Shown in pieces: positions 55,417 through 63,261 of a stretch of 64,000 bases of DNA. Numbering within the stretch: the first letter of the stretch is position 1; every line of letters begins with the position of its first letter. The DNA is from Acidobacteriota bacterium (GTDB lineage Bacteria; Acidobacteriota; Terriglobia; Acidiferrales; UBA7541): contig JABCZR010000012.1 of assembly GCA_013289585.1 (NCBI GenBank), positions 1-64,000 of the forward strand, written 5' to 3'. Under the pieces are notes generated by a model that ran no database searches, had not been told where the DNA came from, and saw only the letters and a program-made list of their open reading frames with translations. The position numbers and the translations under genes are program-made.

Positions 55417-56703
55417 GTGACGGTTGCCGATACACATCGCGCCATCGACGCAGTCTGGCGCATCGAGTCCGCTAGGATCATCGCCGGCCTCGCGCGCATC
55501 CTCCGAGACGTTGGTCTTGCCGAGGAACTCGCCCAGGATGCGCTCGTCGCCGCGCTCGAGCAATGGCCCGCGTCGGGCATCCCCGACAACCCGGGCGCGT
55601 GGCTCATGGCCGTTGCCAAGCATCGTGCGATCGACCGGCTGCGCCGCAGCAAGCTCTTCGAGCAGAAGCAGGGAGAGCTTGCTCGTGAGCTCCAGTCGCG
55701 GCAGGAGAAGGCCGTGGCGGATTTCGAAACCGCGATCGATGATGACATCGGAGACGATCTTCTTCGGTTGATATTCACGGCTTGTCATCCGGTGCTTTCC
55801 CCCGAAGGGCGCGTGGCGCTCACTTTGCGTTTGCTGGGCGGCTTGAACACGGAGGAGATTGCTCGTGCTTTCCTCGTCCCGGAGCCTACCGTCGCCCAGC
55901 GTATCGTTCGGGCCAAGCGCGCTCTTGCCGACGCCCGCATCCCTTTCGAGGTCCCACGCGGCAGCGAGCGCGCCGCTCGACTTTCATCCGTGCTCGAAGT
56001 CATCTACCTGGTGTTTAACGAGGGCTACACTGCTACCGCGGGTGATGACTGGTTGCGGCCTGCTCTTTGCGAGGATGCCCTGCGTCTCGGGCGCATCTTG
56101 GCCGAGCTGACTCCCAAGGAGCCGGAAGTCCACGGCCTCGTAGCGTTGATGGAAATTCAGGCCTCGCGCTCCAGGGCGCGCGTGGGCTCAGCCGGAGAGC
56201 CCATCCTACTAATGGACCAAGACCGTTCCCGCTGGGATCAACTCCTCATCCGTCGTGGTCTTGCCGCGCTTGACCGCGCGGAGAAGTTAGCTGCCGCACG
56301 TGGCCCGTACACGGTTCAGGCAGCAATCGCCGCGTGTCACGCGCGAGCACGTACCCCAGCGGAGACGGACTGGCCACGCATCGTGTCTCTCTATGAGGCG
56401 TTAGCACAACTCACGCCGTCTCCCATCGTGGAGCTCAATCGTGCGGTCGCCATCGCCATGGCCTTCGGTCCGGCAGCAGGACTTGAGGTCATCGACAATC
56501 TTGCCTCGGAGCCGTCTCTCATCGCCTACCACCTCTTTCCTAGCGTCCGCGGCGACTTTCTCTTCAGGCTCGGTCGCTTCCCCGACGCGCAAGCGGAGTT
56601 CGAGCGCGCCGCGTCACTCACTCGCAACGCCCGCGAAAGCGAACTCCTCCTGGGCCGTGCCCGAGCGTGCGCACAAGCACAAATGCGGTCGGGCAGTCCG
56701 TAA
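55417..56703 (+). CDS. ECF42-type RNA polymerase sigma factor with C-terminal TPR-like extension
   Basis: 428 residues. N-terminal sigma region 2 (GLAEELAQDALVAALEQW, NPGAWLMAVAKHRAIDRLRR), region 4 (LRLLGGLNTEEIARAFLVPE, TVAQRIVRAKRALADARI), then a long C-terminal domain (about 180-428) with helical repeats, as in ECF42 sigma factors. These lack a usual anti-sigma factor and are encoded beside DGPF proteins. GTG start with only a weak ribosome site, so low translation is likely. Four matching promoters upstream make it the probable regulator of this cluster. Confidence 0.9.
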   Translation: MTVADTHRAIDAVWRIESARIIAGLARILRDVGLAEELAQDALVAALEQWPASGIPDNPGAWLMAVAKHRAIDRLRRSKLFEQKQGELARELQSRQEKAVADFETAIDDDIGDDLLRLIFTACHPVLSPEGRVALTLRLLGGLNTEEIARAFLVPEPTVAQRIVRAKRALADARIPFEVPRGSERAARLSSVLEVIYLVFNEGYTATAGDDWLRPALCEDALRLGRILAELTPKEPEVHGLVALMEIQASRSRARVGSAGEPILLMDQDRSRWDQLLIRRGLAALDRAEKLAAARGPYTVQAAIAACHARARTPAETDWPRIVSLYEALAQLTPSPIVELNRAVAIAMAFGPAAGLEVIDNLASEPSLIAYHLFPSVRGDFLFRLGRFPDAQAEFERAASLTRNARESELLLGRARACAQAQMRSGSP

Positions 56704-56906
56704 AAACAGTTGGGCTTCTCGCGCGTTGCGCGAATTACAAGCAGGCCCGCTCGCAGCCACCTGGCAGTGTATTCGGAAATCGACCCAACATTCTCGGATG
56801 GCCCGTCCTCCTCGAGTTCTTTAACACGCCGTAACAATCGCCTGGCCTGATTTCGGCTACAATGCCATCTTCGCTTATCGGCAGTCAGGAGCCGCGCTCT
56901 CTTCAC

Positions 56907-58193
56907 ATGGAAAAACGCAAATTTCTCTTTGTCTCGCTCTCGGGTCTTATCGGTGACATCGCCTGGCAAGTTCTCAAGGAAGGCCACGACGTTCGTTACT
57001 ATATCGAAGCCGAAAAAGAGCGCGATATCGGCGATGGTTTCGTCCCCAAATCCAAGGACTGGGAAAAAGATGCTAAATGGTCCGACATCATCGTTTTCGA
57101 CGACACTCTCGGTCAAGGCGCTAAGGCTCAAGCTCTCCGCGCCGGCGGCAAGCCCGTCATCGGCGGCACTCCCTACGCCGACCGTCTTGAAGACGATCGC
57201 TCCTTCGGCCAGGAAGAGCTCAAATCTGCGGGAGTTAGCATCATTCCCTACGAAGACTTTGATTCTTTCGATCCTGCCATCGAATTCGTCAAGAAAAATC
57301 CCGATCGCTACGTCATTAAGCCCAGTGGGGAAGCGCAAAACGTCAAGCGCCGCCTCTTCGTCGGCGAAGAAGAAGACGGAGAAGACGTCATTCGCATGCT
57401 CGAGGCTTACAAGAAAGCCTTCTCCGACGAGATCAAAGTCTTTCAACTCCAGCGGCGCATCAACGGCGTCGAAGTCGCCGTTGGCGCGTTCTTCAACGGC
57501 AAGAAATTCGTCACCCCGGTCAACATCAATTTCGAGCACAAAAAACTTTTCCCTGGCGAAGTCGGGCCTCCCACTGGTGAAATGGGCACCGCCATGTTCT
57601 GGAGCGAGCCCAATCTCCTCTTCAATCGCACGCTTCTCAAAATGGAGTCCAAGCTCGCCGAAGAAGGCTACGTCGGCTACATCGATCTCAATTGCATCGT
57701 GAACAACAACGGTATTTACCCCCTTGAATTTACTTCGCGCTTCGGTTATCCCACTATCAGCATCCAGCAGGAAGGCATGCTCACGCCCATCAGCGATTTC
57801 TTTTGGGAGCTCGCCACCGGCGTCGAGCCCAAGTGGCGCACACGCAGTGGCTTTCAGATCGGCATTCGAATCGTCGTCCCGCCGTTCCCTTTCGACGACG
57901 ACGCCACCTTCGAATCCTTCTCCAAAAACAACGCCATCGTCTTCAAAAAGCCCAACATGGAAGGCATTCACATCGAAGACGTAAAAGAAGTCAACGGCCA
58001 GTGGCTCATCGCGGGCACCTCCGGCGTCGTTCTCGTCGTCGTCGGCCTTGGACAAACCATGAAGCAGGCTCAAGCCCAGGTCTATTCCCGCACAAAAAAC
58101 ATTCTCATTCCCAATATGTACTACCGCACCGACATCGGCGACCGCTGGGCCGAAGACTCCGACAAACTCCACAACTGGGGTTACTTGCGCTGA
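56907..58193 (+). CDS. PurD-like ATP-grasp protein of unknown substrate
   Basis: 428 residues from ATG 56907 (MEKRKFLFVSLSGLIGDIAW). N-terminal Rossmann-like domain, then an ATP-grasp fold (RYVIKPSGEAQNVKR, FQLQRRINGVEVAVGAFF, GYVGYIDLNCIVNNNGIYPLEF) resembling phosphoribosylamine-glycine ligase. It is longer than a strict PurD match would suggest at the C-terminus (about 400 on: VYSRTKNILIPNMYYRTDIG) and lacks purine neighbours. It may be a PurD paralogue for another carboxylate-amine ligation. AGGAG lies 15 nt upstream of the chosen ATG. Confidence 0.72.
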   Translation: MEKRKFLFVSLSGLIGDIAWQVLKEGHDVRYYIEAEKERDIGDGFVPKSKDWEKDAKWSDIIVFDDTLGQGAKAQALRAGGKPVIGGTPYADRLEDDRSFGQEELKSAGVSIIPYEDFDSFDPAIEFVKKNPDRYVIKPSGEAQNVKRRLFVGEEEDGEDVIRMLEAYKKAFSDEIKVFQLQRRINGVEVAVGAFFNGKKFVTPVNINFEHKKLFPGEVGPPTGEMGTAMFWSEPNLLFNRTLLKMESKLAEEGYVGYIDLNCIVNNNGIYPLEFTSRFGYPTISIQQEGMLTPISDFFWELATGVEPKWRTRSGFQIGIRIVVPPFPFDDDATFESFSKNNAIVFKKPNMEGIHIEDVKEVNGQWLIAGTSGVVLVVVGLGQTMKQAQAQVYSRTKNILIPNMYYRTDIGDRWAEDSDKLHNWGYLR

Positions 58194-58271
58194 ACGCTTT
58201 TCATCGCGAACAGTACGCCAGCTTTGTTGGAATCATCGCGCCCGCTTGTTCTGGCGACTGTGAAGATTTCC

Positions 58272-58901
58272 TCACAGCGCCTTCTTATCTTTGTCATCGC
58301 CTCGCGCTTCCACGTAAACCAACTGGAAAAGGCTCCCTTGTCCATCCGGCTGGATGGCAACCAGGTGCTGCTTCTCCTTTGTCCCCGCCTTGAACAAAAG
58401 CCCGCCTTTTTCCGGCTTGTCATCCTCACAAGTGAGCTGGTTCGAAGTTCCGTTCTTCTCCTTGACATTTTTTCTTTGCGAGGCTTCAGAGCAATCCAAG
58501 ACCGTCCCGTACTTCGCCAGTGCCTTTTTATAGAAATCCGCAATCTTCCCCGGCGCATCGCCGGACTCCATCTTCATCACCGCCAGCTTGAATCCAAACG
58601 TGCTCCCCCACAGTCCCAATTGAACAGAAGGTGAATCGTCCTTTTCGTCTTTGTGCAACTTTGCTCCAGGATAGGCGGGCAATCCCACTTCTTTAGGAGT
58701 TGCCTGCTTGCTGATGGTCACACCAGCCCCGTCCTTATCCTGATCTCCCCAACTGACGCCTGCTCTGGATGGTGTAGCTTGAATCAAGGACAGCGCACCA
58801 ACAACAGCAAAGAAAGTTCCGAAGAGCACAAGGCTCCCAATAGCACCGGCTCCGCGGCAAAGCCCCTGTAGCTTCCCATTATTATTGTTTTGTTTGCCCA
58901 C
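58272..58901 (-). CDS. Secreted/membrane-anchored hypothetical protein
   Basis: 209 residues with an N-terminal hydrophobic segment (GAIGSLVLFGTFFAVVGALSLI, about 20-41), which may be a signal anchor. The periplasmic part has GLPAYPGAKLHKDEKDD and KIADFYKKALAKYGTVLDC, with a C-terminal beta-rich end. GTG start behind a strong GAGGAGG. No family recognised. Convergent with the ATP-grasp gene. Confidence 0.72.
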   Translation of the reverse strand: MGKQNNNNGKLQGLCRGAGAIGSLVLFGTFFAVVGALSLIQATPSRAGVSWGDQDKDGAGVTISKQATPKEVGLPAYPGAKLHKDEKDDSPSVQLGLWGSTFGFKLAVMKMESGDAPGKIADFYKKALAKYGTVLDCSEASQRKNVKEKNGTSNQLTCEDDKPEKGGLLFKAGTKEKQHLVAIQPDGQGSLFQLVYVEARGDDKDKKAL

Positions 58902-59065
58902 AAGACCTCCTCGTGCTCATAGATACGCGATTCAGACCGCTTAAGTTCCTCCGATTCCCGTCTCGCGAATATTAGGGAATATTTTGGCCATTCCTGTGGT
59001 ATTACTCGACAGGCGGGGTGTAAGCTTCCGCTGTTGCTCGCTTTTTGACTCATAAGAGGTTTTCT

Positions 59066-59650
59066 ATGAAACGCAAGATCGCTCTCGGCCTCCTGATCGC
59101 TGCCGCCCTCGCTGCCGCCCCGGTGCTGCCGCAGGCCGAAAAGTCTCAAGTTGCCAAGATGTCCCTCAAGGTCGGTGACACCGCCCCGGACTTTACTCTT
59201 CTCAGCGACGGCTGGAAAACCGTGAAGTTGAGCGACTACCACGGCAAGAAAAACGTCTTTCTTGCCGTCTACGTCCTGGCTTTCACCGGTGGTTGAACGA
59301 AGCAACTTCAGGCGGTCCAGGCTGGAATCGCCTCAGGCAAAATCGACACCTCGGATACGGAAGTTTTTGGAGTCTCTCTGGATAGTCCCGCCGCCAACGC
59401 CGCGTTTGCCAAACAAATCGGCGTTACCTTCCCGCTTCTCAGCGACATGAACCGCAAAATGCTCAAGACCTACGGCATCCTTAAGGGATACAATGTCCAG
59501 GATGAAACGTATGAGTGGGCTCTGCGCGCCAACATTGTCATCGACAAGCAGGGCGTTATCCAGTTGATCGATGAAGGCGACAGCGCCGTCGATCCCAACA
59601 CCGCTCTGACCATGTGCACCACCCTGCACAAAAAGGACGCCGCGAAGTAA
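59066..59650 (+). CDS. Predicted selenocysteine-containing periplasmic peroxiredoxin (AhpC/TSA family), in-frame UGA at 59294-59296
   Basis: Reading through TGA 59294-59296 gives 194 residues of the AhpC/TSA thioredoxin fold: signal peptide (MKRKIALGLLIAAALAAAPV), VGDTAPDFTLLSDGWKTVKL, then the active-site line LAFTGG-U-TKQ. The UGA sits exactly where the peroxidatic Cys is in TxxC peroxiredoxins, as U77. The frame continues with good similarity to the family after it (VFGVSLDSPAANAAFAKQIG, FPLLSDMNRKMLKTYGIL) to TAA at 59648; a C-terminal Cys in ALTMCTTL could resolve. A SECIS-like hairpin follows the UGA. ATG 59066 has AGAGG upstream. The alternative is a pseudogene or a sequencing error; selA/selB/selC/selD are not in the window. 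Confidence 0.8.
59310..59333 (+). promoter_or_regulatory. Predicted bacterial SECIS element
   Basis: Strand 59310-59318 pairs with 59324-59333 (9 bp, one bulged A at 59326, one G-U) around the 5-nt loop AGGCU. The loop starts 22 nt after the UGA and has G as second base, both within the usual bacterial SECIS pattern. Confidence 0.6.
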
Positions 59651-59874
59651 TCCTCTTTCTCCGAATCTCGCCGGGACGCTGTTATTGTGTCTCGCAATGG
59701 TTTCACGGCGAAGGTTCAGTCCGTCGTGTGTGTCGTCATCGCTGTGCGGTTGGAACGAGCACTGGAAAACATTGCCATAGTGTCGCAAGATAATGGTGCT
59801 GGGGTCAGGGCTCCAGTTTTCTTGCTCCCGGCAAGCGTGGTCTGCGCGGCCGGCGAGCAACCCAATAAGGAACG

Positions 59875-60081
59875 ATGACCGCTAAGACTCCCGAACAGAA
59901 AAAAGCCGCCGTCGGAGCTCGCGGCCTCAGTCCGGAAGAACTGCAAACCCTCGGCCGCGAACTCTGCACCTGCGGCCACCGGGCCATCAACCACGCCGCT
60001 CTCAAATACGCCTGCCAGTGCCCCGGCGACCGCAAGGGCTACTGCCCCTGCATGCGCTTCCTCCCGAAGTCCCCTAGTTGA
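59875..60081 (+). CDS. Small Cys-rich (probably metal-binding) protein
   Basis: 68 residues. The C-terminal half has the pattern CTCGHRAINH, then CQCPGDRKGYCPCMRFLP, that is six Cys and two His in spacings suited to zinc or iron-sulfur binding. N-terminal part is charged and helical (KTPEQKKAAVGA). ATG follows AAGGAACG. No family recognised. It lies between the predicted selenoprotein and the kinase. Confidence 0.7.
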   Translation: MTAKTPEQKKAAVGARGLSPEELQTLGRELCTCGHRAINHAALKYACQCPGDRKGYCPCMRFLPKSPS

Positions 60082-60306
60082 ATCCGACTGACGACGGCTT
60101 CGCGATCCTCTAAGGCGGCAACAGATACCTCGGCGCTTCTCTGGGTCTTGTTTTGACCCGCGGAGAACGCTTCGATCCGGTCCTCAGCCTCAGTCGTCCC
60201 CAGGTTCCCCACACAATAGGACCCTCGCGGTCTGAGTTTGCCCCCTCCCAGCACGACTGTTAATTTTATCAGTAGGTGCACACGCTTAACTGGCGCAACA
60301 TCAAGC

Positions 60307-63261
60307 ATGCCCGAATCCAATTCCGTGACGGGTCGAACCATCTCGCACTACCGGGTGCTGGAGAAACTCGGTGGTGGAGGCATGGGTGTGGTCTATAAGG
60401 CTGAGGATCTCACCCTCCACCGGTTTGTCGCGCTGAAGTTCCTTCCAGACCAGTTAGCCCGGGACCCTCAAGCCCTGGAACGATTTCGTCGGGAGGCCCA
60501 AGCCGCTTCTGCGTTGAATCATCCGAATATCTGCACGATCCATGGAATCGGGGAGCATGAAGGAGAGCAATTTATCGCCATGGAGTATCTGGATGGCGTG
60601 ACTCTCAAATATCTCATTGCCGCCCATACATTGGATACCCAGCGCATCGTAGCGATTGCCATCGAAATTGCCGAAGGGCTTGATGCGGCGCATGCCGAGG
60701 GTATCGTTCATCGCGATATCAAGCCCGCGAACATTTTTGTGACCAAGCGCGGCCACGTCAAGATCCTCGACTTTGGGTTAGCCAAAGTGGCCTACGTCAC
60801 TAGCCGTCAGGCTGCCATGGCAGGAGTCATAGGTGACGAAACGCTGGCCTCCAGCGCGGAGCACCTGACCAGCACGGGCGCTACTCTCGGCACGGTCCAT
60901 TACATGTCGCCCGAGCAAGTACGCGCCAAAGAACTGGACGCCCGCACGGATTTGTTCTCCTTCGGCGTGGTTCTCTACGAGATGGTTACCGGACGAATGC
61001 CGTTCCGTGGTGAGAGCTCGGGCGTGATCACGGAGGCCATCTTGAATCGCACTCCAGTGGCCCCCGTCCGGCTCAACCCTGAGATTCCACCCAAGCTGGA
61101 AGACATTATCAATAAGGCGCTGGAGAAGGATTGCAATCTTCGCTACCAGACTGCGTCTGACCTTCGCACGGACTTGCAACGATTGATGCGAGACACACAG
61201 TCCGACCGAGCGCCAGTAATCGAAGAAGACGAAGAGGAGTACGTCCCATTACCAGTCAAAAGCGGTCCTCGCTCCAGTGAAAAACGGAAGGAAGTGATTT
61301 CGCAGCCGGAGCCGGCCGAGAAACGAGGGCGTGGTCGCCGGAGGATGGTGGCATCCGTGGCGGCGTTCGTGGTGCTCGTCCTCATCATTGGTGGACTCTA
61401 CTGGCGTACGCACCGACCAGTGATGTTTACGGCCAAAGACACGCTTCTGCTGGGAGATTTCGAGAACAAGACCGGGGAGGCCATTTTTGATGGCACGCTC
61501 CGGCAGGGCCTTGCAGTGCAACTCCAGCAATCACCGTACTTGAGTTTCCTGCCGGGGCCACAGGTCCGGGAGACGCTGAAGATGATGGGACACGCTTCCG
61601 ATGACCGAATCACAGCGGAAATGGGGAGGGAAATCTGCGAACGCCAGGGATTGAAGGCGTTCGTCGCGGGAACGATTTCTCCGTTAGGGAGCCACTACGT
61701 CCTCACTCTGGTGGCGGTCAACGGGCACAGTGGCCTAATGCTCGCCCACGAACAGGAGGAGGCGGCAAGCAAGGAGGAGGTGCTGGGAGCGCTTTCGAAA
61801 GCCGCGACGCGGCTTCGCAAACAGTTGGGTGAATCTCTGAGTTCCATCGAGAGGTTTGATAAGACAATTGAGCAAGCCACCACATCGTCACTCGATGCGC
61901 TGCATGCTTACAGCCTGGGATACGAGATCAAGGACACAAAAGGCGACGAAGCGGCCGTTCCACTATTTGAAAGAGCCATTGAATTGGACCCGAAATTCGC
62001 AATGGCCTATGCCTTGCTTGCGACGAGCTACTCGAATTTGGGAGAGAGGAACCGAGCCGGCGAGATCATGACGAAGGCGTACGAGTTACGCGAGCGGGTG
62101 AGCGAACGAGAAAAATACTATATTGAGTCTTATTATCACGACTTGGTCGTCGGTAATCTGGATAAGGCGCTCCAAGTCTATGAACTCTGGGCTCGAGTTT
62201 ATCCCCGAGATGACGTACCCGTGGGCAATTTAGGACTCGTGTACGGCTATCTCGGGCAATATGAAAGAAGCCTTGAGGAAACAAGCGAGGCACTTCGCCG
62301 TCATCCCGAGAGCAGTCTGAGGTACGCCAACCTCGTCCAGAGCTATTCTCATCTGAATCGCCTGGATGAAGCGCACACAGCGGCCGAGGAGGCGCACGCA
62401 AAAAACCTCGATTCTCCTTTTCTGTGCTTCTATTCCTACCGGCTGGCCTTCTTGCAGAATGACGCGAGAGGGATGGCGCGCCAAGTGGCTTGGTCCGCGG
62501 ACAAACCGGGAGTACGAGACATGCTTCTGGGAGCCGAGGCGGATACAGCCGCATTTTTCGGCCGACTGGAAAAGGCCCGCGAGTTTTCACGCCAGGCGAT
62601 CGCTTCCGCTCAACAAGTAAAAGAGAACGAAACAGCCGCGGGCTATGAAGACGATGCCGCCCTGTGGGAAGCCCTCTTCGGCAATCTCGCCGACGCACGG
62701 CGGCACGCAGACGCAGCACTGGCGCTTTCGAATGGCCGGGATGTGACATTTGGAGCAGCGCTTGCTCTGGGCTTTGCAGGCGAAACATTACAAGCGCAAA
62801 AACTGGCTGATGGCTTAGCCAAGCGATTTCCGGAAGATACTTTAGTGAGATTCAACTACTTACCAACTATCCGAGCGCAAGTCGCCGTAAACAACCGCGA
62901 TTCTGCCAAAGCCATCGAGACTTTAAGCGTTGCGATTCCCTTCGAGTTCGGACAGCCCGGCGATTCTGCTTTTACGCCTTCTCTCTATGCCGTCTATGTG
63001 CGTGGAGAAGCCTATTTGGCTGCGCATAAGGGCAACGAGGCGGCGGCTGAATTCCAGAAAATTCTCAACCATCGTGGGGTAGTAACCAATGAACCGATCG
63101 CAGCACTGGCAGTTCTAGTTATCGCCCGTGCCCGCACCGCGCGGGGAGACACCGCAAAAGCCCGCACCGCCTATCAGGATTTCTTCACGTTCTGGAAAGA
63201 TGCTGACCCTGACATTCCCATCCTGAAGGAAGCCAAAGCCGAATATACGAAGCTGCAATAA
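60307..63261 (+). CDS. Membrane Ser/Thr protein kinase (Hanks-type) with extracytoplasmic TPR domain
   Basis: 984 residues from ATG 60307. Kinase domain with Gly loop [10 protein letters not shown] (22-31), catalytic Lys K44, [10 protein letters not shown] (H135-R136-D137) and DFG (D155). A transmembrane helix (about 346-370, [19 protein letters not shown]) separates it from an extracytoplasmic region with a domain that may bind ligands (about 385-520) and TPR repeats ([25 protein letters not shown]-like units) to the C-terminus. An upstream ATG at 60238 would add 23 residues. No ribosome site is convincing at either start. Its substrates are unknown. Confidence 0.88.

Follow-up and report, generated by a model that had tools for sequence, protein, structure and literature searches.

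An acidobacterial peroxiredoxin-like gene with an in-frame UGA codon very probably read as selenocysteine

Within the 64,000 nucleotides analysed (contig JABCZR010000012.1 of an Acidobacteriota bacterium, hereafter the window), the reading frame of an AhpC/TSA protein is interrupted by a single TGA codon. Is the gene broken at this point, or is the codon read as selenocysteine? The initial annotation had placed the TGA exactly where the catalytic cysteine of a peroxiredoxin stands, and the features that bear on this proposal are collected in Table 1. The read-through product matched PF00578 with 97.4 bits (cut-off 26) over residues 36-167, and upon alignment with the nearest solved chain, 2ywn, the cysteine of the AFTQVCTK segment of that chain fell on residue 77. 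The local motif at the UGA is TGGU, of the TxxU type. A sequencing error is unlikely, because the same TGA is present in the genome of another species, at 96% identity.

Table 1. Coordinates, in the window, of the features discussed in the text
Feature	Position	Strand	Description and basis
Selenocysteine peroxiredoxin-like gene (predicted)	59066..59650	+	194 codons (amino acids) and stop TAA; 585-nt frame
Likely ribosome-binding site AAGAGG	59054..59059	+	6 nt 5' of the ATG; proposed from reading the sequence
N-terminal hydrophobic, signal-like segment	59066..59140	+	About residues 1-25; Kyte-Doolittle, pattern
Val70 codon	59273..59275	+	Pro position of PxxxTxxC/U; motif count across the family
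UGA codon 77, very probably read as selenocysteine	59294..59296	+	Peroxidatic position; alignment to homologues and 2ywn
SECIS hairpin, within the coding sequence	Stem 59310-59319 with 59323-59333, apical loop GGC 59320-59322	+	Conservation, covariation, folding
Cys184 codon, candidate resolving Cys	59615..59617	+	C-terminal helix; conservation, model

The position of the TGA was then compared across homologues. Among 97 distinct homologous proteins, column 77 was UGA in 81 cases, Cys in the other 16, and nothing else, with the reservation that the search query and patterns had Cys at 77, a slight bias toward UGA or Cys homologues, and that matches with a BLASTP score below 70 (frame listing) or below 89 (97-protein set) were left out. 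Placement of the codon at the catalytic cysteine is thus borne out, homologues with Cys at this position exist, and the sequences continue past the site instead of being truncated there. The presence of TAA or TAG at codon 77 was tested by a search of 88 match places in which stops were read through, the other frame listing being split at these two codons. All 87 places covering the site had TGA or a Cys codon, and none of the extra TAA or TAG codons seen in some matches lay at codon 77. At E 1e-20, 69 of the 101 genomes searched gave a match, at least one UGA form being found in 62 and Cys forms only in 7. Nearer relatives were mostly Acidobacteria MAGs, the closest (96%) labelled gp2; exceptions in the labels were one near relative given as Betaproteobacteria and a farther one as Myxococcaceae. 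The protein also matched 107 plasmid records, all below 60% identity, and one PHROGs family of unknown function (42.6 bits). Damaged copies were seen at related loci, in two relatives: the frame of L079 and L134 is broken at roughly codons 100-110, and L125 has a changed C-terminus. Three relatives carry tandem pairs of such UGA genes (L136, L139, L164).

Selection on the protein was estimated between the target and six UGA relatives (dS up to 1.6). Ratios of dN/dS were 0.045-0.172 before the UGA (codons 33-76) and 0.028-0.132 after the hairpin (codons 93-194). The low values past the UGA indicate that this part is selected as protein, and the frame, as the initial annotation had it, is intact on both sides of the codon.

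The selenocysteine machinery that this proposal implied was found in the genome (4.73 Mb in 32 contigs, completeness 97.24%), with selA at 572 bits (cut-off 268), selB at 363 (cut-off 242), selD at 353 (cut-off 125) and a tRNA-Sec with anticodon TCA (UCA) at 65.6 (cut-off 47). Across genomes, selB was above cut-off in 59 of 62 with the UGA form, versus 29 of 39 without it (Fisher p 0.004, uncorrected for kinship); this co-occurrence is weak evidence, as selB is present in 88 of the 101 genomes. Three genomes with the UGA form stood apart: G006 had a selB match of 231.8 bits, below cut-off (positions 73-578), G058, 59% complete, had no match, and in G079, 88% complete, the best match (190.9 bits, below cut-off) is probably EF-Tu. 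For G079, sequence is perhaps missing. The genome under study holds two further PF00578 genes with a UGA. The second (G000:C4:70517-70903, L002, UGA at 1621) is BCP-like, has an NTSGUT motif and forms a hairpin when the 60 nt counted from the UGA are folded; the third (G000:C11:163176-163613, L005, UGA at 1666) has an RGYWUPFC (UxxC) motif, N-terminal hydrophobic stretches and a hairpin after the UGA.

The hairpin described downstream of the UGA was recovered with the geometry announced: it starts 13 nt past the codon and is topped by AGGCU (59319-59323), a 5-nt loop with G at position 2, reduced to the 3 nt GGC should the A and U pair. A small apical loop with a G, just after the UGA, agrees with the loop criterion for bacterial SECIS elements given in the available part of PMC1088965. 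Folded as a single sequence, the region did not stand out (z -1.36; an equally good fold in 15 of 200 dinucleotide shuffles), RNAalifold returned 4 pairs only (-1.19 kcal/mol), and a search of Rfam over 56000-62000, with E values allowed up to 10, gave no match. Given the weakness of the single-sequence fold and of RNAalifold, covariation and synonymous-codon controls were used instead. The 76 distinct UGA regions were divided into 54 that aligned without gaps (A1), 15 from a clade with a QMQN motif (A3) and 7 distant ones placed in neither; from the 36 distinct Cys regions, the 11 nearer homologues formed A2, and the other 25 entered only the per-gene pair counts.

In A1, 418 of 486 pair cells (86.0%) were paired, and covariation reached 0.271, compared to a shuffled mean of 0.113 (sd 0.015), none of 500 shuffles being as high; sliding the partner strand brought it to 0.019-0.124. 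Compensatory changes were frequent, one pair occurring as U-A (34 regions) or C-G (19), a second as G-C (24) or C-G (17). As such shuffles ignore kinship, a null with synonymous codons, which preserves the protein, was added. It gave a mean of 281.9 paired cells (sd 7.6), and 0 of 2000 samples were as high as the observed count. Taken by itself, the target gene has 8 of the family structure's 9 pairs; synonymous codons gave 4.8 on average and reached this number in 0 of 300 samples. As for the hairpin, the earlier argument against chance was upheld, not by the single fold, but by pairs that covary and exceed the synonymous null. In A2, only 41 of 99 cells (41.4%) were paired, with a shuffle mean of 46.1 and a synonymous-codon null of 43.4 (1611 of 2000 as high). 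We conclude that the hairpin is kept by compensatory changes in these 54 UGA genes, and is absent from the 11 nearer Cys homologues.

Per-gene counts went the same way, with on average 5.99 of 9 pairs in the 76 UGA regions (null 4.19) and 4.11 in the 36 Cys regions (null 4.14). Among seven genes, synonymous variation affected 2 of 9 conserved degenerate codons over codons 82-91, and 25 of 34 and 47 of 62 elsewhere (codons 33-76 and 95-194, respectively). Some UGA genes have a poor hairpin, no better than their synonymous nulls (L083 with 2 of 9 pairs, L074 with 6 of 9). A covariance model of the hairpin, R1, run on the genome itself, scored the target at 60.3 bits and two further weak places at 17.8 (E 0.218) and 15.7 bits (E 0.842); the genome's two further UGA peroxiredoxin-type genes were missed. 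The paralogous UGA clade with the QMQN motif (L141, L143, L145, L147, L151-L154, L156-L158, L160-L163, L174) forms a hairpin of another kind, its loop 13 nt long, in which 99.0% of 105 cells are paired. Its covariation, 0.084 for 0.028 in shuffled alignments (8 of 500 as high), is only suggestive of a separate element.

Could the UGA be accounted for without selenium? Decaying genes can have single in-frame stops, and damaged copies, as mentioned above, occur among related loci; the TGA might thus be a true stop truncating a former Cys protein at codon 76, or else an error of sequencing. Against this stand the UGA at the identical codon in 81 distinct proteins, the TGA or Cys codon in all 87 places covering codon 77, the low dN/dS past the UGA and the covarying hairpin, and we regard this explanation as extremely unlikely. 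Hardly more probable is read-through by a near-cognate or suppressor tRNA that inserts a different residue. The frame would stay open likewise, but the sel system is complete, the RNA hairpin is confined to UGA forms, and Cys is the sole alternative residue at the site. Selenocysteine at position 77 is strongly supported by the machinery, the UGA/Cys column, the low dN/dS and the covarying hairpin restricted to UGA forms, and we conclude that UGA77 is very probably decoded as selenocysteine, in a gene that is almost certainly intact despite its apparent stop.

The history of the UGA and Cys forms was examined on a tree of 95 proteins, made by a quick method and unrooted, in which 28 of 92 inner branches are weak and long branches are flagged. 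Five changes between UGA and Cys were needed. One starred clade (97) consists of seven Cys proteins (L034, L036-L039, L044, L125), and these, together with six UGA genes, make up another (98), nested in UGA lineages. All seven belong to the 11 Cys genes that lack the hairpin. The simplest reading, on this unrooted tree, suggests a replacement of Sec by Cys accompanied by loss of the hairpin. Sec decoding was not lost on this occasion, since the seven genomes concerned (G014, G032, G012, G019, G030, G024, G018) all have selB above cut-off, and six of them, all except G012, also carry a UGA paralogue. The accessible part of a 2006 survey (PMC1794560) reports no Sec-to-Cys event among 12 Sec peroxiredoxin genes; the present tree suggests at least one.

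We next consider what the protein may do. The structure model (mean pLDDT 86.1) has U77 at the start of a helix (75-90) and Cys184 within a C-terminal helix (178-192), and Sulfolobus Bcp1 and Bcp4 and mycobacterial AhpE were among the best of 50 PDB fold matches listed. The proline of the peroxiredoxin motif PxxxTxxC/U was looked for and is replaced by Val70 in the target, which is why we name the gene peroxiredoxin-like. Among nearer proteins (BLASTP score of at least 120; 73 UGA and 11 Cys, 84 in all), this position was Val in 54, Ile in 18 and Ser in 1 of the UGA proteins, and Val in 8 of the Cys proteins, including all seven of the nested clade. By its sequence, Val70 in place of the proline speaks against a standard peroxidase site. 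Thr or Ser was found at -3 of residue 77 in 97 of 97 proteins, and Arg154 is among the conserved columns, at 1.00 in the same 97; the conserved Arg of peroxiredoxins is catalytic. The Cys184 column, the only other widely conserved Cys column, is Cys in 71 of 81 UGA and 10 of 16 Cys proteins (81/97), and a Cys lies within the last 30 residues in 71 of 73 nearer UGA and 10 of 11 nearer Cys proteins (81/84). Position +4 in the active-site helix is occupied by Leu or Met in this family, and not by Cys.

The signal peptide proposed earlier finds a counterpart in a hydrophobic, signal-like N-terminal segment (Kyte-Doolittle 12-residue maximum 2.73), where pLDDT is low (residues 1-5 and 9-29). Such a segment precedes the domain in 80 of the 84 nearer proteins; none of these has a lipobox-like pattern, nor has the target. 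The protein is probably exported, on hydropathy only. Five neighbour genes were scanned and 37 related loci compared: no thioredoxin was found among the five neighbours, which name no functional partner. Each of two upstream genes was matched in 6 of the 37 loci and a sigma-type gene in 2, many flanks being short; with the same short flanks, the kinase, the multicopper oxidase and a small Cys-rich ORF were matched in none. The latter, downstream at 59875-60081 (68 aa), has no Pfam match.

A mechanism may be proposed from these elements. SelB-GTP, carrying Sec-tRNA(Sec), would bind the hairpin just past the UGA and deliver selenocysteine, and the full-length product would be exported by its signal-like N-terminus. 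The selenolate of U77 would then attack peroxide, as in a peroxidase of the peroxiredoxin type, the fold of which is supported by profile and model. The resulting selenenic acid would be resolved by Cys184, and the selenylsulfide so formed would be reduced by an extracytoplasmic thioredoxin-like protein. For the step between U77 and Cys184, the chances appear about even. The enzyme might instead be a selenoprotein peroxidase of the 1-Cys type, in which an outside thiol is the direct reductant and Cys184 has a structural role: one of the nearest solved chains, that of mycobacterial AhpE, bears the title of a 1-Cys peroxiredoxin, and the +4 position of the active-site helix has no Cys. Conservation of the Cys184 column, and of a C-terminal Cys in nearly all nearer proteins, makes this somewhat unlikely. 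The motif proline is replaced in each of the 73 nearer UGA proteins and in 8 of the 11 nearer Cys ones, which would also suit a selenoprotein that uses the peroxiredoxin fold mainly for something else, for instance as an exported thiol-disulfide or selenyl oxidoreductase. Against this stand the invariable Thr or Ser at -3, the conserved Arg154 and the clear PF00578 match, and we hold it to be quite improbable. As judged from its sequences, the family most likely works like a Sec peroxiredoxin. The complete proposal, that is, an exported acidobacterial selenoperoxidase subfamily of VxxxTxxU type, with a U77-Cys184 selenylsulfide and a natural Sec-to-Cys replicate in which the SECIS decayed and selB was kept, is put forward tentatively, its chances falling slightly short of even.

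Sec peroxiredoxins with TxxU are already catalogued, according to the available parts of PMC13188914, PMC9312934 and PMC1088965, the first being the Eubacterium acidaminophilum enzyme, as cited in the first two, which are reviews; PxxxTxxU is the motif given in what is available of PMC13188914. Our gene shares with these enzymes (PF00578/COG1225) the AhpC/TSA fold, a UGA at the peroxidatic TxxU and a SECIS just 3' of it, but lacks the motif proline and has a signal-like N-terminus and the conserved C-terminal Cys184. It scored 51 bits with the PrxU model (NF040737.1, an NCBI equivalog), below the cut-off of 270. Its best NCBIfam model was BCP/PrxQ (PRK09437.1, NF006960), at 70.1 bits, again below cut-off (140); many matched Cys homologues of BCP/PrxQ type have a second Cys at +4 or +5, whereas the target family does not. 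AhpE of M. tuberculosis, Bcp1 and Bcp4 of Sulfolobus and the S. tokodaii peroxiredoxin (2ywn), which rank among the closest solved chains both in sequence and in fold, have no Sec, unlike the predicted target protein, and the C-terminal Cys kept by the target family sets it apart from AhpE, titled 1-Cys. Prx-SUH (NF045827), another catalogued Sec thiol peroxidase, gave 29.7 bits for a cut-off of 298, and its motif is catalogued as CxxU, not TxxU, in the available part of PMC13188914. For Acidobacteria, the accessible text of the 2006 survey counts 3 families and 4 selenoproteins, and that of the deep-Sep paper (PMC12013277) one genome with 3 known selenoprotein genes. Among the literature matches listed, no paper on this acidobacterial subfamily was recognised by its title or the opening of its abstract; some members may already be annotated in sequence databases.

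The enzyme type is thus already known to use selenium, and what is new here is the acidobacterial variant with Val or Ile for Pro. In many Acidobacteria genomes, an annotation without selenocysteine rules would split or drop this gene, of which the UGA form occurs in 62 of the 101 relatives searched. The joint occurrence of a lost motif proline and of Sec usage poses a concrete question of structure. As the family has orthologues of both UGA and Cys form, some with the hairpin and some lacking it, the benefit of Sec over Cys is directly testable in one scaffold. A UGA gene of the same fold, with motif DWTPVU and the motif proline retained, was also seen in Calidifontibacillus oryziterrae ZYK (L084:5133-5135), a named strain, the culture of which may make bench testing easier.
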